DNA of 32,277 nt, taken from Bacteroidaceae bacterium (GTDB lineage: Bacteria > Bacteroidota > Bacteroidia > Bacteroidales > Bacteroidaceae). Positions 21,475 to 28,847 of the stretch are shown here, in pieces. Location of the stretch: positions 1 through 32,277 of the forward strand of contig JAFSVI010000060.1 in the NCBI GenBank assembly GCA_017445145.1, written 5' to 3'. The notes beneath the pieces were generated by a model. The model had not been told where the DNA came from. It did no database searches and saw only the letters and a program-made list of their open reading frames with translations. Position 1 is the stretch's first letter, and each line of letters opens with the position of its first letter. The translations under genes were made by a program, and so were the position numbers.

Positions 21475-21948
21475 ATGTACCACCACCTCTTCAATCGCAC
21501 AGCACAGGCGCTGCTGACGGCGTTTCTCGTCAGCCTGGCTGCTTGCAAGACCACAGAGGACAACGCCGAGGCGGCTGCCGATGCCATGCTCTGTCAGGCC
21601 CGCGAGCTGCTGGCACAGAAGCGCTATGACGAAGCGCGCGACACCATCCTCACCCTGCGCCAGCGCCATCCCACGGCGTTGGAGGCGCGCCGTCGGGCCA
21701 TTCTCACCCTCGACAGCGTGGAGCTGCTGCAGACGCGCGACAGCGTGGCGCTGCTCGAGTCGTGGCTGGAGGGCGAGCGTGCTGCCTTTGCGCAGATGGC
21801 TCCCCGCGTGGATGGTGCTACCAATGACGCCTACTATCGTCAGCAGCGCCTGCTGCGCGACATGGAGTTCCATTTGGATGAGCTGTGTGCGAAGGTGAAG
21901 TTCTTTGTGCGCAAGATTGACATCGATTCGCATCCCGATGCAGACTAA
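21475..21948 (+). CDS. Small putative lipoprotein with TPR-like helices, unknown function
   Basis: A 157-residue protein with a signal ending in the lipobox LAAC (Cys24), followed by KTTED. That Lys/acidic start is compatible with the export tags of surface lipoproteins in Bacteroidota. The mature part is almost wholly helical: AMLCQARELLAQKRYDEARDTILTLRQRHPTALEARRRAILTL resembles one TPR-like helical repeat, then come more charged helices. I do not recognise a named family. The gene stands alone between the divergent CCA-enzyme gene and the trp control region, with its own promoter box. Its stop codon overlaps the first of two dyad elements described below. Function is open; a scaffold or envelope-stress role would be a guess. 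Confidence 0.75.
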   Translation: MYHHLFNRTAQALLTAFLVSLAACKTTEDNAEAAADAMLCQARELLAQKRYDEARDTILTLRQRHPTALEARRRAILTLDSVELLQTRDSVALLESWLEGERAAFAQMAPRVDGATNDAYYRQQRLLRDMEFHLDELCAKVKFFVRKIDIDSHPDAD

Positions 21949-21999
21949 ATGTTTAGCCAACGGGCCAAAATGCAAAATAATTGCCCAAATGTTTGGCAA
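21945..21999 (+). promoter_or_regulatory. Candidate operator: two dyads with the core AAATGTTT, 40 bp apart
   Basis: CTAAATGTTTAG (21945-21956) and TTGCCCAAATGTTTGGCAA (21981-21999) are both inverted repeats around a central TG. They share AAATGTTT, with centres exactly 40 bp apart. The second has one extra C in its left arm and covers the TTTG -33 box of the trp promoter. Which protein would bind is unknown. Confidence 0.4.
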
Positions 22000-22023
22000 A
22001 ATGAAAGCCAATCCATAACTTTG
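21992..22023 (+). promoter_or_regulatory. trp operon promoter (-33 TTTG, 20 bp, -7 TAACTTTG)
   Basis: TTTG (21992-21995) and TAACTTTG (22016-22023) are 20 bp apart, a full match to the Bacteroidota primary-sigma promoter. The transcript should start near 22030 and carry an untranslated leader of about 190 nt before trpB, which holds the leader peptide and the attenuator. Confidence 0.8.
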
Positions 22024-22055
22024 CCGCCGAAAATCAACCCATAAAGCACATATAC

Positions 22056-22112
22056 ATGATTCGTAACGCATTCTATTGGTGGTGGCGCAACTCAAGATTC
22101 CAACAATCGTGA
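22056..22112 (+). CDS. trpL: trp operon leader peptide (Phe-Tyr-Trp-Trp-Trp)
   Basis: An ATG at 22056 opens an 18-codon frame, MIRNAFYWWWRNSRFQQS, ending in TGA at 22110-22112. Codons 8-10 are three consecutive TGG tryptophan codons, directly preceded by Phe and Tyr codons. It lies 33 nt after the trp promoter and 108 bp before trpB. A run of codons for the pathway product just before a terminator hairpin is the signature of ribosome-mediated attenuation: with little charged tRNA-Trp the ribosome would stall here and alter leader RNA folding. The Trp codons lie in the left arm of a possible pairing, CTATTGGT (22073-22080) with ACCAATAG (22127-22134). No Shine-Dalgarno is seen. Translation is inferred, not shown. 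Confidence 0.85.
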   Translation: MIRNAFYWWWRNSRFQQS

Positions 22113-22158
22113 GAAGATAGCCCCGTACCAATAGCATGCACAATTGGAGAAATACCTG

Positions 22159-22196
22159 GAGAGGCCTGTCGTTCTTGCGACGGGCCTCTCTCTTTC
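22159..22196 (+). terminator. trp attenuator (intrinsic terminator before trpB)
   Basis: GAGAGGCCTGTCG (22159-22171) pairs with CGACGGGCCTCTC (22178-22190) over 13 positions, one of them a G-U pair, with a 6-nt loop and a T-rich tail TCTTTC. It ends 24 bp before trpB and after the leader peptide, so it would stop transcription before the structural genes. A competing pairing of AGCCCCGT (22119-22126) with ACGGGCCT (22180-22187), 7 of 8 positions, could disrupt it. Confidence 0.85.
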
Positions 22197-22220
22197 AATA
22201 GTAACAAAACACAACACGAC

Positions 22221-23426
22221 ATGAACAGCTACCAAGTTGACAACAACGGCTTCTATGGCGAATTCGGGGGTGCCTACGTGCCCGAGATTCTCTACAAGTG
22301 TGTCCACGACCTGCAAGAAGCCTATCTGCCCATCATCGAGTCCGACGAGTTCCGGCGCGAGTACCACTCGCTGCTGCGCGACTACGTGGGGCGCCCCTCG
22401 CCGCTCTACCTGGCGCGCCGCATGAGCGAGCGCTATGGTTGCCAGCTCTACCTCAAGCGCGAGGACCTGAACCACACCGGCGCCCACAAGATCAACAACA
22501 CCATAGGCCAGATACTCCTGGCGCGCAAGATGGGCAAACGGCGCATCATCGCCGAGACGGGAGCCGGGCAGCACGGCGTGGCCACGGCCACGGTGTGTGC
22601 GCTCATGGGCATGAAGTGCGAGGTGTTCATGGGTGCCACGGACGTCGAGCGCCAGCACACCAACGTCGAGCGCATGCGCATGCTCGGCGCCGAGGTGCAT
22701 CCGGTGCGCACGGGCAACATGACGCTCTCCGACGCCTGCTCGGCAGCCATACGCGACTGGTGCTGCCACCCCTCGGACACGTTCTACATCGTGGGCTCCA
22801 CCATGGGGCCGCACCCCTATCCCGACCTGGTGGCGCGCATGCAGAGCGTCATCTCCGAGGAGCTCAAGTGGCAGCTCGAGGAGAAGGTGGGGCGCGACCA
22901 CCCCGACTGTCTCGTGGCATGCATCGGCGGCGGTTCCAACGCCGCCGGCACCATCTACCACTACATGAACGACGAGCGCGTGCGCATCGTCCTGGCCGAG
23001 GCCGGTGGCCAGGGTTGGCAAACCGACCACACCGCCGCCACCATCCACCGTGGCAGCGTGGGCATACTCCACGGCTCGAAGATGCTCGTCATGCAGGACG
23101 CCGACGGCCAGATCCAGGAGGCGTTCACCATCTCCGCCGGCCTCGACTACCCCGGCGTGGGACCCATGCACTGCAACATGGCCCGTCGGGGGCGCACACA
23201 GGTGCTGGCCATCAACGACGACGAGGCCATCCGCGCCGGCTACGAGCTGACGCGCCTGGAGGGCATCATCCCGGCCATCGAGAGCGCCCATGCCGTGGCG
23301 GCGCTCGCTAAACTCACCTTCAAGCCCACCGACGTCGTTGTGCTCACCGTGAGCGGCCGCGGCGACAAGGATGTGGCAACATATCTCAACAACAAACACC
23401 TTGCAGGCGAATATGGCAACTTTTAA
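22221..23426 (+). CDS. trpB: Tryptophan synthase beta chain
   Basis: Joins indole with L-serine to give L-tryptophan, using pyridoxal phosphate, in the alpha2-beta2 complex. The 401 residues have the PLP lysine K90 in NHTGAHKINNTIGQ, the carboxylate loop AETGAGQHG, the phosphate-binding GGGSNA, the family sequence EAGGQGW and the C-terminal SGRGDKD. The start at 22221 (MNSYQVDNNGFYGEFGGAYVPE) matches the family N-terminus. It is the first structural gene of the operon, which is typical of Bacteroides-type trp operons, whereas in E. coli trpB lies next to trpA near the end. Here its partner trpA is the last gene. trpE starts inside its final codons. Confidence 0.97.
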   Translation: MNSYQVDNNGFYGEFGGAYVPEILYKCVHDLQEAYLPIIESDEFRREYHSLLRDYVGRPSPLYLARRMSERYGCQLYLKREDLNHTGAHKINNTIGQILLARKMGKRRIIAETGAGQHGVATATVCALMGMKCEVFMGATDVERQHTNVERMRMLGAEVHPVRTGNMTLSDACSAAIRDWCCHPSDTFYIVGSTMGPHPYPDLVARMQSVISEELKWQLEEKVGRDHPDCLVACIGGGSNAAGTIYHYMNDERVRIVLAEAGGQGWQTDHTAATIHRGSVGILHGSKMLVMQDADGQIQEAFTISAGLDYPGVGPMHCNMARRGRTQVLAINDDEAIRAGYELTRLEGIIPAIESAHAVAALAKLTFKPTDVVVLTVSGRGDKDVATYLNNKHLAGEYGNF

Positions 23427-24831
23427 CTTCGCGACCAACAGCCGCACCATCCTTGCAGACCTCTACACACCCGTGGGAGTGTATATGCGTCTGCGCGACC
23501 TATATCCGCAGAGCACACTCATGGAGTGTGCCGACTACCACGACGCCGCCAGCTCGCGCTCGTTCATCGGCATTGACCCCATTGCCAGCGTGGCCGTGGG
23601 CCACGGCGTGGCCACAGTGGCCTTCCCCGACGGCAGCTGCGAGAAGCATGAGGTCGGAGCAGCATACACCGTGGCCGATGCCATACATGCCCTCACCGAC
23701 AGCCTACATGTCGAGGGCGACCACGCTGCCGCCATGGGCCTCTTCGGCTACACCAGCTTCAACGCCGTGCGCTATTTCGAGGACATCGCCGTGAAGGACG
23801 AGACGCAGAGCGAGAATGATGCCCCCGACGTGCTATATACATTATATAAGGTGGTCATCGTGTTCGACCACCACAACAGCCAGCTCACCGTCGTGGAGAT
23901 GGTGCCGACCGACGCCGCACACGGCCAACAAAACCCCGCGGTGTTGAATGATGTTGTCCGCGCCATCAATCGAAACTCGGCGCGGGAATATGGCTTCCAC
24001 GCCGTGGGCGATGTGACGAGCACCCTCACCGATGATGAGCACCGAGCCAACATACGTCGTGGCATCGGCCACTGCTTGCGCGGCGACGTCTTCCAGATTG
24101 TGCTCTCCAGGCGCTTCGTCCAGCGCTACGAGGGCGACGACTTCCGCCTCTACCGCGCACTGCGCAGCATCAACCCCAGCCCATACCTCTTCTATTTCGA
24201 CTTCGGCGGATTCCGCATCTTCGGCTCGTCGCCCGAGACCCACTGCCGCATCGAGGGCCGACGCGCATACATCGACCCCATCGCCGGCACGACGCGCCGC
24301 ACCGGCGACGCCGAGGCCGACCGCCGTGCCGCCGAGTTCCTGCGCAGCGACGCCAAGGAGAATGCCGAACACGTCATGCTCGTGGATCTGGCGCGCAACG
24401 ACCTCAGCCGCAACTGCCACGACGTGCGCGTGGATTACTACAAGGACATCCAGTACTATAGCCACGTCATACACCTCGTATCGCGCGTCAGCGGCGAACT
24501 CGATGCCGGCAGGGACCCCATACAGGCCTTCATCGACACCTTCCCCGCCGGCACACTCTCCGGCGCACCCAAGGTGCGCGCCATGCAGCTCATCTCCGAG
24601 TACGAACCCCACAACCGCGGTGCCTACGGCGGGTGCATAGGCGTTATCGGCCTCGACGGCTCGCTCAACCAGGCCATCACCATCCGCACCTTCGTGGCCC
24701 GTGGCGGCGAGCTGTGGTTCCAGGCCGGCGGCGGCATCGTTGCCAAGAGCGACGTGGAGTATGAGCTTCAGGAGGTCAACAACAAGCTCGGCGCGCTGCG
24801 TCGTGCCATCGTTGCCGCCGAGTCGCTTTAG
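23413..24831 (+). CDS. trpE: Anthranilate synthase component I
   Basis: Converts chorismate to anthranilate with ammonia supplied by TrpG; the committed, feedback-controlled step. I chose the ATG at 23413, which overlaps the trpB stop by 14 nt. An upstream ATG in the same frame (23371) would add 14 residues unlike the family. The 472 residues contain the catalytic motifs PIAGTTRRTGD (289-299), LVDLARND (323-330) and TFPAGTLSGAPK (376-387). The second effector motif INPSPYLFYF is at 253-262. The first effector motif, LLES in classical enzymes, reads TLMECADYH (35-43), so the serine that contacts tryptophan is C39. That may change feedback strength. The C-terminal catalytic core is full length. 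Confidence 0.95.
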   Translation: MATFNFATNSRTILADLYTPVGVYMRLRDLYPQSTLMECADYHDAASSRSFIGIDPIASVAVGHGVATVAFPDGSCEKHEVGAAYTVADAIHALTDSLHVEGDHAAAMGLFGYTSFNAVRYFEDIAVKDETQSENDAPDVLYTLYKVVIVFDHHNSQLTVVEMVPTDAAHGQQNPAVLNDVVRAINRNSAREYGFHAVGDVTSTLTDDEHRANIRRGIGHCLRGDVFQIVLSRRFVQRYEGDDFRLYRALRSINPSPYLFYFDFGGFRIFGSSPETHCRIEGRRAYIDPIAGTTRRTGDAEADRRAAEFLRSDAKENAEHVMLVDLARNDLSRNCHDVRVDYYKDIQYYSHVIHLVSRVSGELDAGRDPIQAFIDTFPAGTLSGAPKVRAMQLISEYEPHNRGAYGGCIGVIGLDGSLNQAITIRTFVARGGELWFQAGGGIVAKSDVEYELQEVNNKLGALRRAIVAAESL

Positions 24832-24897
24832 GCCCGCACCCGCGCCTCGCGCCGATGGACAATAACCAACGATCATCAACCCATAGCATTGAGTAAT

Positions 24898-25485
24898 ATG
24901 AAGATAGCCATCATCGACAACTACGACTCCTTCACCTACAACCTCGCACACCTCGTGCGCGAGCTGGGTGCCGAGGCGGACGTGGTGCGCAACGACCAGT
25001 TCCGCCTGCCCGACCTCGAACCCTACGACAAGCTACTGCTCTCGCCCGGGCCGGGCATACCCTCCGAGGCAGGGCTGCTCTGCGACGTCATACGCACCTA
25101 CGCCCCGGCGAAGCCCATCCTCGGCGTGTGTCTCGGCCACCAGGCCATAGGCGAAGTGTTTGGCGCAAGCCTCACGAACCTCGCCGACGTGTTCCACGGC
25201 GTGGCCACGCCATGCCACATCGTGGCCAGCAAGGCCCACCCCGGCGAACCTCTCGACCCCCTCTTTGCGGGGCTTCCGTCCACCATCACCGTGGGGCGCT
25301 ACCACTCGTGGGTCATCGATGCCGCCTCCCTCCCCGAGTGCCTTGAGCCTACGGCCACCAGCCCCGAGGGCCAGGTCATGGCGCTGCGCCACCGCTGCCA
25401 CGACGTGCGTGGCATACAGTTCCACCCCGAGAGCGTGCTGACACCCGACGGCCGCCAGCTCATTGCCAACTGGCTGCGCTCATAA
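24898..25485 (+). CDS. trpG: Anthranilate synthase component II (glutamine amidotransferase)
   Basis: Hydrolyses glutamine and passes ammonia to TrpE. The 195-residue class I amidotransferase has the catalytic triad C78 in GVCLGHQAIGE and H176/E178 in QFHPESVLT, plus the oxyanion strand LLLSPGPGIPSEAG. The start is the ATG at 24898, giving MKIAIIDNYDSFTYNLAHL, the family N-terminus; an in-frame TTG 9 nt upstream is unlikely to be used. A separate TrpG, not fused to TrpD, is usual in Bacteroidota. The 66-bp gap to trpE is longer than most junctions in this operon, and I see no promoter box in it. Confidence 0.96.
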   Translation: MKIAIIDNYDSFTYNLAHLVRELGAEADVVRNDQFRLPDLEPYDKLLLSPGPGIPSEAGLLCDVIRTYAPAKPILGVCLGHQAIGEVFGASLTNLADVFHGVATPCHIVASKAHPGEPLDPLFAGLPSTITVGRYHSWVIDAASLPECLEPTATSPEGQVMALRHRCHDVRGIQFHPESVLTPDGRQLIANWLRS

Positions 25486-25532
25486 CCCCGACATCACAAC
25501 ACACACACATCCATATACACTCACACACCACC

Positions 25533-26597
25533 ATGCAACACACACTCAAAACCTACCTCTTCCGCCTCCTCAACCATGAGGAACTCACACGCGAGGAGAT
25601 GAAGACCATCCTTGTGGGCATCACACACTCCGAGTACCCCAACGAGCAAATCACGGCACTGCTCACAGCACTGCAGATGCGCGGCGTCACCGTGGATGAG
25701 CTGCTCGGCTTCCGCGACGGCATCCTCGAGACGGGCGTGCCTGCCATACTCGACTCGGACCGCTACATCGACGTCGTGGGCACGGGCGGCGACCGCAAGA
25801 ACACCTTCAACATCTCCACCACGGCGTGCTTCGTCATCGCCGGTGCCGGCTACAAGGTGGCCAAACACGGCAACTACGCCGCCACGTCGGTCAGCGGTGC
25901 CAGCAACGTCATCCAGCACCACGGCATACGCTTCACCGACGACATCGACCGCCTCAACCGCAGTCTCAACGAGGCCGGCATCGTCTATCTCCACGCACAG
26001 CTCTTCGCACGCGCCATGAAGTTCGTGGGACCCATACGCAAGGCGCTGCAGTTCCCCACCATCTTCAACCTCCTGGGACCCATCGTCAACCCCAGCCAGC
26101 CGCAGTGCCAGCTCCTCGGGGTGGCCAACCTCGACCAGATGCGCCTTTATCATCAGGTGTATCAGCGCATGGGCATGGACTTCGGCATCGTCAACTCCAT
26201 CGACGGCTACGACGAGATCTCGCTCACAGGACCCTTCAAGGTCACCATGGGCTTTGCACCGGCGCCAGCCACCACCGACACACCTGCCGCCACCGACGCG
26301 CCCGCCGGCTACGAGCGCGTCTTCGCACCCGCCGACCTGGGCTTTGACGTGGCCAGCCCCGAGGAGCTCGTGGGAGGCGCCACCGAGGAGGAGGCCGCCG
26401 CCATCTTCGACGCCGTGCTCGAGAACCGCGCCCTACCCGCGCAGAAGAACATCGTCCTGGCCAACGCGGCTTTCGGCATACAGGTGCTGGAGCGCGGGCA
26501 GAAATCGGTCGAAGAGTGCATTGCCATCGCACGCGAGAGCATCGACAGCGGTGCCGCGCTGCGCACATTCCGCAAGTTCGTAACCCTCAACAGCTAA
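25533..26597 (+). CDS. trpD: Anthranilate phosphoribosyltransferase
   Basis: Transfers phosphoribose from PRPP to anthranilate. The 354 residues show the PRPP-binding GTGGD (83-87), NISTTACFVIAGAG, KHGNYAATSVSGASN (111-125) and the later LGPIVNPSQPQCQLLGV. Residues of about 241-258 form an Ala/Thr/Pro/Asp-rich linker (PAPATTDTPAATDAPAG) between KVTMGF and YERVFAPADLGF, longer than in the homologues I remember. The start is the ATG at 25533, preceded by a 47-nt leader made almost only of C, A and T. trpC starts 5 bp after its stop, so the junction is tight. Confidence 0.95.
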   Translation: MQHTLKTYLFRLLNHEELTREEMKTILVGITHSEYPNEQITALLTALQMRGVTVDELLGFRDGILETGVPAILDSDRYIDVVGTGGDRKNTFNISTTACFVIAGAGYKVAKHGNYAATSVSGASNVIQHHGIRFTDDIDRLNRSLNEAGIVYLHAQLFARAMKFVGPIRKALQFPTIFNLLGPIVNPSQPQCQLLGVANLDQMRLYHQVYQRMGMDFGIVNSIDGYDEISLTGPFKVTMGFAPAPATTDTPAATDAPAGYERVFAPADLGFDVASPEELVGGATEEEAAAIFDAVLENRALPAQKNIVLANAAFGIQVLERGQKSVEECIAIARESIDSGAALRTFRKFVTLNS

Positions 26598-26602
26598 CAG
26601 CC

Positions 26603-27400
26603 ATGACAGACATACTCCAACAGATCATCGCCACCAAACGCCAGGAGGTGGCAGACCTCAGCGCCAGATTCGTGCGCGACGACCTCGTTGCCGACAACGA
26701 CATCCTCGTGGCATCGGCACCGCGGCCGTCGCTGCGCCAGGCACTGCTCGACAGCCCCACGGGCATCATTGCCGAGTTCAAGCGCCGCTCGCCATCCAAG
26801 GGGTGGATCAACGAGCGTGCCCGGCCCGAGGTGGTGCCGCTCGCCTATCAGCGCGGCGGCGCGGCGGCACTCTCCATCCTCACCGACGGCCACTACTTCG
26901 GCGGCCACGACGACTACATATGCGCCGCGCAGCACAGCGGCGTCACACTGCCCATACTCTACAAGAACTTCGTCATCGACGAGCTGCAGCTCCATGCCGC
27001 ACAGGTCTGCGGCGCATCGGCCGTGCTGCTCATAGCGGCGTGCCTCACCAAGCCGCGATGCAAAGCCCTCATCGCTCACGCACATGCCTTGGGGCTGGAG
27101 GTGCTGCTCGAGATGCACAGCGAGGCCGAGATGGAATATGCCGAGCTGGAGCCGGACCTGTGTGGCATCAACAACCGCAACCTCGGTTCCTTCGTCACCG
27201 ACGTCGATAACAGCTTCCGCATGGCCGCGCTGCTGCCGCCCGAGGCCGTGAAGGTCAGCGAGAGCGGCATTGGCGACGCCGCCACGGTGCGTGCGCTGCG
27301 CCAGGCGGGCTTCAGCGGCTTCCTCATGGGCGAGCACTTCATGCGCGCTGCCGACCCGGGCCTGGCGCTGCGCGAGTTCATCAAATCGCTGGAAGCATGA
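26603..27400 (+). CDS. trpC: Indole-3-glycerol phosphate synthase
   Basis: Closes the indole ring, turning carboxyphenylamino-deoxyribulose phosphate into indole-3-glycerol phosphate. The 265-residue TIM barrel shows IIAEFKRRSPSKG (E58, K60 and the SPSKG loop at 63-67), SILTDGHYFGG, the catalytic lysine strand LYKNFVID, LLEMHSEAE, GINNRNLGSF, VSESGI and the phosphate loop FLMGEHFM. I start at the ATG at 26603, 5 bp after trpD, giving MTDILQQIIATKRQEV as in the family; upstream in-frame codons lie within trpD. The trpF ATG overlaps its stop (ATGA). TrpC and TrpF are separate here, unlike the fused E. coli enzyme. Confidence 0.96.
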   Translation: MTDILQQIIATKRQEVADLSARFVRDDLVADNDILVASAPRPSLRQALLDSPTGIIAEFKRRSPSKGWINERARPEVVPLAYQRGGAAALSILTDGHYFGGHDDYICAAQHSGVTLPILYKNFVIDELQLHAAQVCGASAVLLIAACLTKPRCKALIAHAHALGLEVLLEMHSEAEMEYAELEPDLCGINNRNLGSFVTDVDNSFRMAALLPPEAVKVSESGIGDAATVRALRQAGFSGFLMGEHFMRAADPGLALREFIKSLEA

Positions 27401-28023
27401 CGACCCACAAACGCCTCATCAAAGTGTGCGGCATGCGCCACGAGGCCAACATACGCGCCGTGGAGGCCCTGGGCATCGACATGATGGGCTTCATCTTCTG
27501 GCCGGGGTCGAGCCGATGCGTCAGCTCTCCTCCCGCCTATCTCCCGGAGCGCTGCCGGCGGGTGGGCGTGTTCGTCGATGAGGATGCCGACCGCGTGAGG
27601 CGGATTGCCGATGCCTGCGCCCTCGACTGCGTGCAGCTCCACGGCCGCGAGACGCCCGACTACTGCGCGCGCCTCAGCGCATACACCGTCATCAAAGCCT
27701 TCAGCATAGCCACCGCCGCCGACCTGCCACAGACAGATGCCTACGCCGACGTGGCAAGCTATTTCCTCTTCGACACCAAGGGGCGCAGCGCCGGAGGCAA
27801 CGGCACGAAGTTCGACTGGGAGGTGCTGCAGGCCTACACAGGCTCCACGCCCTTCCTCCTGAGCGGCGGCATAGGCCCCGATGATGCTGCCGCCGTGAGC
27901 GCCTTCAGCCATCCGCGCTGCGTGGGCATCGACATCAACTCGCGCTTCGAGCTAAGGCCGGGACTCAAGGACACCGCCGCCATAGCCGCCTTCATCGACC
28001 GTCTGGCACACGCCTCCCGCTGA
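27397..28023 (+). CDS. trpF: Phosphoribosylanthranilate isomerase
   Basis: Amadori isomerisation of phosphoribosylanthranilate. The 208-residue TIM barrel carries the general base C11 in [12 protein letters not shown] and the general acid D126 in [19 protein letters not shown], with [21 protein letters not shown] and the phosphate-binding GIDINSRFE. Its start overlaps the trpC stop by 4 bp, so translation is probably coupled. In the pathway it acts before TrpC although the gene follows it. A 47-nt spacer with no G separates it from trpA. Confidence 0.96.
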
Positions 28024-28070
28024 CACCCATACACACCATCCCTCATCACCCACATACCCACACCATCACC

Positions 28071-28847
28071 ATGAACAAAATCAACCAGCTCTTCGCCGCT
28101 CGAGGCGAACGCAAGCTCTTCTCGCTATATTTCTGTGCCGGATGCCCCACGCTGGGCGCCACGGCCGACGTCATCCTCACCCTCCAGCGCCGCGGCATCG
28201 ACATGGTGGAGGTGGGCATACCGTTCAGCGACCCGCTGGCCGACGGACCCGTCATCCAGGGTGCCGCCACACAGGCACTGCGCAACGGCATGAACCTCGC
28301 CACCCTCTTCAGCCAGCTCGCCGCCGTGAGCCAGCAGGTCACCATACCCCTTGTGCTCATGGGCTACCTCAACCCCATCATGCACTATGGCTTCGAGCGC
28401 TTCTGCCAAAGCTGCGTCGAGGCCGGCGTCAGCGGCATGATTATCCCCGACCTGCCTTTCGACGACTACGTGCGCGACCTCAAGCCCATTGCCGACCGCC
28501 ACGACCTGCGCGTCATCATGCTTATCACGCCGGAGACATCCGACGAGCGCATACGCCTCATCGACAGCCACACCGACGGCTTCATCTACATGGTGAGCTC
28601 GGCGGCCATCACGGGCACACAGCAGAGCTTCGACGATGCCAAGCAGGCCTATTTCCGGCGCGTCGATGCCATGGGGCTCCGCAACCCGCGCATGATAGGC
28701 TTTGGCATCTCCAACCGCCAGACTCTCGAGGCCGCACAGGCCCATGCTGCCGGCACCATCATCGGTTCGAAGTTCGTGCAGCTGCTCAACGATGCCGGCG
28801 GCGACGCCGATGCGGCGCTGGATGCGCTGTTTGCTAACCTCTTTTAA
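28071..28847 (+). CDS. trpA: Tryptophan synthase alpha chain
   Basis: Splits indole-3-glycerol phosphate into glyceraldehyde-3-phosphate and indole, which is channelled to TrpB. The 258 residues show E47 and D58, the two catalytic acids, in [20 protein letters not shown], followed by [44 protein letters not shown] and [10 protein letters not shown]. It is the last gene of the operon, 47 bp after trpF. No clear intrinsic terminator follows. The next 80 bp contain a promoter-like box for the downstream gene, and read-through is possible. Confidence 0.96.

Follow-up and report, generated by a model that had tools for sequence, protein, structure and literature searches.

A diverged Bacteroid-trp leader ahead of a Bacteroidaceae trp operon, with a predicted antiterminator that engages the terminator loop

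Leader-peptide attenuation is textbook knowledge from the enterobacteria; in the Bacteroidota, a phylum with few Shine-Dalgarno sites, it rests on predictions. The locus described here, from a Bacteroidaceae bacterium, raises the question of whether a short frame with a run of Trp codons and a hairpin ahead of trpB form such a switch and, if so, which RNA strands carry it. Throughout, ‘the window’ denotes the whole stretch of DNA analysed, the 32,277 nucleotides of contig JAFSVI010000060.1 (assembly GCA_017445145.1).

The leader and the operon behind it

Reading from the promoter towards trpB, we find the elements listed in Table 1 much as the first-pass annotation had described them: a TTTG, a 20-nt spacer and TAACTTTG (which we take to be the −33 and −7 types of the Bacteroidota promoter consensus), an 18-codon frame with three consecutive TGG codons, and a hairpin of 13 positions with a T-rich tail; the annotation's distance of 24 bp to trpB is true for the tail, the stem itself ending 30 nt away. 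The T tract is weak, and the window hairpin is absent from a consensus terminator scan whose threshold is 5 T in 8. First-order Markov resampling yielded no short ATG frame with an in-frame TGGTGGTGG, either in 100 resamples of the window or in 2000 of the intergenic stretch, and the predicted fold of the leader RNA (−59.9 kcal/mol) is more stable than that of each of 200 dinucleotide shuffles (z −5.4). The leader arrangement before trpB is real, and beyond chance.

Table 1. Positions of the leader elements and trp genes in the window
Feature	Position	Strand	Detail
Promoter	21992..22023	+	TTTG 21992-21995, 20-nt spacer, TAACTTTG 22016-22023; read directly
Leader peptide frame	22056..22112	+	MIRNAFYWWWRNSRFQQS, 18 codons, ATG...TGA; Trp run conserved in relatives
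TGG x3 (Trp codons)	22077..22085	+	putative stall site; codons read from the sequence
Outer helix 1:2	22073..22134	+	CUAUUGGU 22073-22080 with ACCAAUAG 22127-22134; fold
Outer helix 1:2, inner pairs	22084-22086 with 22120-22122	+	GGC with GCC; fold
Strand 1	22091..22099	+	CUCA-a-GAUU, pairs with AAUC-UGAG 22105-22113 (helix 1:2); fold and co-variation
Strand 2	22107..22115	+	UCGUGAGAA, spans the stop codon; partner is strand 1 or the terminator apex
Terminator hairpin (predicted)	22159..22190	+	13-bp arms 22159-22171 / 22178-22190
Terminator loop	22172-22177	+	TTCTTG; tail after the stem TCTTTC
Terminator apex	22172..22180	+	UUCUUGCGA, loop and first 3 nt of descending arm; putative antiterminator partner of strand 2
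trpB	22221..23426	+	first gene of the operon; TIGR00263, 558 bits against cut-off 392
Operon remainder, trpE-trpG-trpD-trpC-trpF-trpA	23371..28847	+	NCBIfam matches
trpE	23371 (ORF start) to 24831	+	best match, below the model's curated cut-off
trpG	24889-25485	+	NCBIfam match
trpD	25533-26597	+	NCBIfam match
trpC	26516-27400	+	best match, below the model's curated cut-off
trpF	27397-28023	+	best match, below the model's curated cut-off
trpA	28071-28847	+	NCBIfam match

The operon downstream of the leader reads trpBEGDCFA, its ORF starts being mechanical calls, with some ORFs overlapping; the trpE ORF, for example, begins 56 nt inside the end of trpB (23371–23426), and its real start may be later. 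On the other side, directly upstream of the promoter, ORF 21475–21948 has a weak OM_YfiO/BamD match (22.4 bits against a cut-off of 81.4).

Searching the same assembly at the DNA level reveals a second leader on another contig (L002), 73% identical to that of the window. It encodes the peptide MTAKANFWWWQNSRL, has the same strands and a hairpin of similar type, and precedes trpB2 (NF009057, 700 bits; TIGR01415, 590 bits). Within a sample of 37 genomes of the genus, trpB2 is found in 34, and by comparison of coordinates a leader lies ahead of it in 5 of these. A Trp leader on a lone trpB2 argues for a role of the trpB2 enzyme in Trp metabolism. In two genomes, G019 and G021, trpB2 bears a leader and a search for trpB1 at E 1e-60 gives no match; as each assembly is rated 85% complete, the gene may have been missed.

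Relation to Bacteroid-trp and distribution

No Rfam family matches the window at the default cut-off. Below it, RF01692 (Bacteroid-trp; ‘Bacteroidete tryptophan peptide leader RNA’ in the family description) aligns over its whole model (1–131) with 36.3 bits against a gathering cut-off of 49, an E value of 0.0094 for 329 bases searched against all 4227 families. The two share the phylum, a tandem-Trp short frame directly upstream of trp genes, and the same 1:2 hairpin, in which the cmscan alignment (1–131) runs from the Trp-codon region to the UCGU(A/G)AG strand and then into AAGGC(C/U)UGUC; their terminators also begin alike (AAAGGCUUGUC / GAGAGGCCUGUC). They differ in that the window scores under the cut-off, and the RF01692 model ends inside the ascending arm, containing neither the terminator loop nor the pairing of strand 2 with the terminator apex (2:apex) described below.

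Relatives bridge this gap. Out of ten scanned with RF01692, seven pass its cut-off (L002, L044 and L049 fail), and R1, a model built mostly from the window's genus (relatives of the window plus L028 and L029 from other families), finds L034, L036, L040, L063, L068, L077 and L082, all of which pass RF01692, L036 being the same place as L029, one of R1's building sequences. On this chain of homology the window leader is a diverged relative of Bacteroid-trp that falls under the family cut-off. The first-pass annotation had allowed for predicted candidates in a few Bacteroidota, which is correct as far as it goes and falls short of the mark, the leader type being already known as RF01692. At L036, positions 769–807 also match the DUF805b cis-regulatory RNA (RF02914; 38 bits against a cut-off of 35.6).

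Flavobacterium psychrophilum, which we assume belongs to the same class of bacteria as the window's host, also appears in the literature on such leaders. Bacteroid-trp appears as a table row in Weinberg et al. 2010 (PMC2864571) and is named upstream of the F. psychrophilum trp operon (PMC6414381); clues to leader-peptide attenuation are given upstream of amino-acid operons of that species (PMC9723704), and leader-like short frames are mentioned in B. thetaiotaomicron (PMC7366714). The portions dealing with F. psychrophilum (PMC9723704, PMC6414381) give neither an antiterminator nor a test of the Trp response. Within the literature covered we met neither an experiment that tests a trp attenuator from the Bacteroidota nor an account of its antiterminator.

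A whole-genome search with RF01692 under strict filters places none of the 37 same-genus genomes, and 2 of 61 relatives, over the cut-off. R1 at E 0.001 matches 21 of the 37 and 33 of the 61; at least one of the 21 matches (G024) adjoins no trpB that we could find. Leader DNA is matched in 26 of 100 relatives (27 of 101 with the window's own genome), and at the 31 loci examined (30 of 37 listed match places plus two loci of the window's own assembly, less one repeat) the next gene is trpB in 21, trpB2 in nine and trpE in one. The best-scoring 57 loci of the first R1 searches, three of them repeats, all have trpB, trpE or trpD downstream. A further 60 loci, hand-picked from the R1 lists for the best E values together with some weaker ones, have a trp gene directly downstream in 52; among the other eight, L113 has trpB 827 nt on, L128 a cysteine synthase gene and L142 hisG, and L137, L139, L147, L148 and L149 have no trp gene downstream.

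The short frame and its Trp codons are kept in close relatives, where a lack of conservation would have refuted the first-pass annotation: over 141 leaders, gathered with a script that required at least two W, three W occur in 120, two in 18 and four in 3. At least 118 stretches of a named collection carry the genus-type leader pattern (which itself requires WWW), and among the 118 matches listed 104 lie before trpB, 12 before trpB2 and one ends at a contig end. By name, the near relatives belong to Prevotella or Xylanibacter or are gut MAGs of that group; 80 titles among the matches listed read Prevotella, Prevotellaceae, Bacteroidaceae or Bacteroidales, largely from ruminant MAGs, and include Prevotella sp. 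ne3005 and the cultured type strain Xylanibacter brevis ATCC 19188 (L164), which carries the same leader type. The promoter element is kept too: among the matches listed, 117 named relatives have upstream DNA of sufficient length, and 105 of them carry TAnnTTTG 40–90 nt ahead of the Trp run, against a frequency of 0.017 in shuffles. One of the 118 listed, L200, lies on the reverse strand some 2.4 kb from the end. Its genus-type frame, MLHTSNYWWWRDSGFKKS, is accompanied by strands 1 and 2; the hairpin that comes next is of another kind, and the 2.4 kb examined contain no trp gene. L200 may be an orphan or decayed copy.

The leader type is found before trpB, trpE, trpD, trpC or trpB2 across many genomes of the class; its presence within the genus is uneven. 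Of the 29 genomes of the genus sample (37) that have trpB1, 18 carry an R1 leader directly ahead of it; the upstream DNA of the remaining 11 holds two diverged leaders (L268, MMQNGTYKWWWRYLRT; L273, MNRAYWWQRSEYYIFVSGCVIAK), and nine (L269–L272, L274–L278) show no Trp frame and no convincing R1 match, so that, judged from these upstream regions, the leader has been lost from, or was never present in, part of the genus. At E 0.01 R1 matches 204 of 393 genomes of the order and 120 of 395 of the phylum, counts that are too generous since they include reverse-strand terminator matches and false matches; the sole two loci examined outside the class, L147 and L148, are false matches, and the leader is not confirmed there. 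One contig of G386, with a split trp set, bears three separate leaders, before trpE (L049), trpC (L105) and trpB (L106), and tandem pairs of leaders, each with its own hairpin, precede trpE in G066 (L028), G258 (L133) and G244 (L134); the leader seems to have been copied onto the pieces of split operons, and sometimes doubled.

Two of the R1 matches point to other amino acids. L128 (G189, reverse strand) combines a Cys run in the frame MKISAYISINCCWCCENTSKCKQFVNM with a terminator-like hairpin ahead of a cysteine synthase gene (a 150-residue piece; TIGR01139, E 1.5e-57), a candidate Cys-sensing leader by its sequence; a strand 29 nt past the start of the codon run pairs with the hairpin apex, 34 of 2000 shuffles doing as well. 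A search of its family (six genomes, five besides its own) gave shorter matches and no second Cys leader. L142 (G501, reverse strand), with five His codons in the frame MNNALIINNHHHHHVSNTIRGRFMF and a terminator-like hairpin before hisG (TIGR00070), is likewise a candidate His leader; its strand-to-apex pairing does not exceed chance, 1522 of 2000 shuffles doing as well.

Alternative pairings of the leader RNA

Pair counting in 32 leaders gives 97.4% of cells paired for helix 1:2, GGU/ACC of the outer helix kept in 89.1% and GGC/GCC in 93.8% of cells, and 96.6% for the terminator stem, which has six pairs with both sides changed. For 2:apex the figure is 94.1%, and sliding the strands gives no more than 62.4%; no pair is changed on both sides, and there is no excess over shuffles in these leaders, mostly of one genus. 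The count was undecided because strand 2 hardly varies within one genus, and for that reason a wider set of leaders was gathered. A consensus fold of 31 leaders shows 1:2 and the terminator only; being nested, it cannot also hold 2:apex.

The wider set comprises 141 leaders from 39 families (the tool's numbered families), thinned to 93 by shared 6-mers, after removal of duplicates (L003, L033, L036, L042) and of loci lacking a usable Trp frame or hairpin (L128, L137, L139, L142, L147–L149). For a few of the 93 (e.g. L022, L052, L057; also L103, L117, L130, L145) the script picked a poor hairpin or some other best partner, and these are kept in the counts; its T-tract rule was relaxed, the stricter rule losing 15 loci. 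Co-variation was scored as the duplex energy of segments within one leader against segments re-paired between leaders, a permutation test and not a phylogenetic model, and guarded against relatedness by drawing one leader per family (39 families, 60 random draws).

Strand 2 and the apex pair at −10.29 kcal/mol natively and at −8.50 kcal/mol (sd 0.20) when permuted, none of 20000 permutations being as low; with the loop alone z is −5.0. Strand 1 with strand 2 reaches z −7.1 (again 0 of 20000 as low), the two terminator arms, as a positive control, z −28, and a control stretch (W+42 to W+60) with the apex z −0.8, all over the 93 leaders. Drawing one leader per family gives a median z of −6.9 for 2:apex (range −8.7 to −5.8), −4.6 for 1:2 and 0.0 for the control. 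Matching changes in strand 2 and apex include UCGUGAG/CUCACGA (L029), UCGGGAG/CUCCCGA (L058), GGGAAA/UUUCCC (L144), GGGAUG/CAUCCC (L146), UCGUAAG/CUUACGA (L050) and GAUCGUAAG/UUUACGAUC (L100); in 18 of the 93 the pairing is no better than expected from its own row and column. The diverged leaders L268 and L273, of the same genus and outside the test set, keep 2:apex at −16.3 and −15.2 kcal/mol with a hand-chosen apex (6 and 1 of 2000 shuffles as good), one of them with wholly changed letters. The best partner of the apex begins between W+22 and W+31 in 85 of 93 leaders, and the leader stop, though ranging from W+18 to W+51, lies within strand 2 in 68. Comparison of sequences thus supports the leader, its conservation and both the 1:2 and the 2:apex pairings; an antiterminator of the 2:apex type is newly proposed here, with good comparative support. 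The leader accordingly shows the hallmarks of the attenuator class, a leader peptide with regulatory Trp codons and mutually exclusive structures, one of them a predicted terminator.

In the textbook arrangement strand 2 pairs with the terminator's ascending (5′) arm, and the rest of the layout agrees with it: like the enterobacterial trp leader, the window type has a tandem-Trp short peptide, mutually exclusive RNA strands and an intrinsic terminator before the operon. The comparative data, however, point elsewhere: over the 93 leaders strand 2 does not co-vary with the ascending arm, whether the arm is taken in full (z +2.6, with 19898 of 20000 permutations equalling or beating the native pairing) or cut to its top 8 nt (z +0.9); the RNA between W+40 and the terminator likewise shows no co-variation with the arm (z +1.5), and one leader per family gives strand 2 a median z of +1.5. 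RF00513, which we take to be the Trp_leader of the enterobacterial scheme, is not among the window's Rfam matches at E values up to 10, and its ascending-arm antiterminator is not what we find here. Whereas the enterobacterial leader builds its antiterminator with the ascending arm, strand 2 of the window type, as far as co-variation reports, changes together with strand 1 and with the loop and descending arm; a classical 2:3 antiterminator is disfavoured and, to our minds, improbable.

The identity of the signal can be weighed in the same manner. The Phe and Tyr codons beside the Trp run might also stall the ribosome and induce the operon, the general aromatic sensor suggested in the first-pass annotation; F or Y stands directly before the run in 22 of 29 same-genus leaders, and before it in 99 of 117 peptides read from named loci among the matches listed. 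Outside the genus, however, F or Y occupies −1 in 42 of 112 leaders, with T (28) and N (23) as common, only 3 of 141 leaders share the window's F at −2, and a single Phe or Tyr codon is not a run; these counts do not support the suggestion, and such a sensor seems unlikely. TrpR controls trp operons in enterobacteria, and under a TrpR the leader would be secondary or dead; PF01371 (TrpR), the sole regulator covered, matches none of 61 genomes, with an E. coli positive control that does match, which speaks against TrpR control and makes it scarcely credible. The hairpin could instead be a constitutive terminator or processing signal, with the short frame a translated or re-initiation leader without Trp sensing: the weak T tract at the window hairpin counts for this, and a role of leader genes near start codons in raising translation via re-initiation, mentioned as a possibility in PMC4833913, would fit. 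Against it, Trp codons are kept throughout the gathered leaders, the RNA strands co-vary in a mutually exclusive manner and a trp gene comes next at nearly all loci examined, and we hold this reading to be very improbable. The ribosome-mediated trp attenuator of the first-pass annotation is upheld, both by Trp runs before trp genes and by the co-variation of 1:2 and 2:apex.

Nascent-RNA folding and the proposed switch

We folded the nascent RNA of each of the 93 leaders with 4 or 6 nt of the descending arm exposed, setting the edge of a stalled ribosome at W+15. With 4 nt exposed, the mean probability of 2:apex is 0.72 in the stalled state (above 0.5 in 83 of 93 leaders), 0.03 with the ribosome at the stop codon (2 of 93) and 0.32 with no ribosome (32 of 93), the last of which drops to 0.17 (16 of 93) once 6 nt are exposed. 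For the window leader the three states come to 0.86, 0.00 and 0.45 at 4 nt, and 0.80, 0.00 and 0.00 at 6 nt. The stalled result holds for edges from W+12 to W+27 (above 0.5 in 66 to 88 of 93, 4 or 6 nt exposed), is weaker at W+9 (65 of 93 at 4 nt, 44 at 6 nt) and is down to 9 and 5 of 93 at W+33, a point that a ribosome at the stop would reach or pass in 91 of 93 leaders, assuming stop plus 12 nt. In the complete transcript 2:apex exceeds 0.5 in none of the 93 leaders in any of the three states; the terminator wins in each, so the switch would have to be kinetic. Once 2:apex has formed, the lower half of the terminator stem stays unengaged and might still terminate, a point against the model.

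The locus is very probably a ribosome-mediated transcription attenuator that senses charged tRNA-Trp, with strand 2 pairing to the terminator apex when Trp is scarce. Under such scarcity we infer that the ribosome would stall at the TGG run and cover strand 1, leaving strand 2, just downstream, free to ‘catch’ the terminator loop and the start of the descending arm as they leave RNA polymerase; the top of the terminator could then not close, and the operon would be read. With Trp plentiful, a ribosome at the stop codon, inside strand 2, would hide that strand and the terminator would form, as it would if the leader were untranslated, strand 1 then tying up strand 2. Stalling, termination, read-through and the kinetic action of 2:apex all belong to this model, by which the leader most likely switches the trp operon on at tryptophan shortage.

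What emerges from the comparison is a concrete antiterminator unlike the textbook E. coli version, in a leader type that the known Rfam model misses throughout our sample of 37 genomes of the genus. We think it rather likely that the whole Bacteroid-trp class uses such a non-E. coli antiterminator, in which the freed strand takes the terminator loop as a foothold and then the descending arm, blocking closure from the top; a kinetic switch kept across the Bacteroidia, copied onto split trp operons and maybe common to other amino-acid leaders, e.g. for cysteine. If true, this foothold would be closed to the ascending arm of the terminator itself. The nine same-genus trpB loci without a leader (L269–L272, L274–L278) offer natural controls. 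The conserved layout also implies the transcription-translation coupling that an attenuator needs: the switch would work only if the ribosome closely trails RNA polymerase, which makes coupling in the Bacteroidota directly testable.
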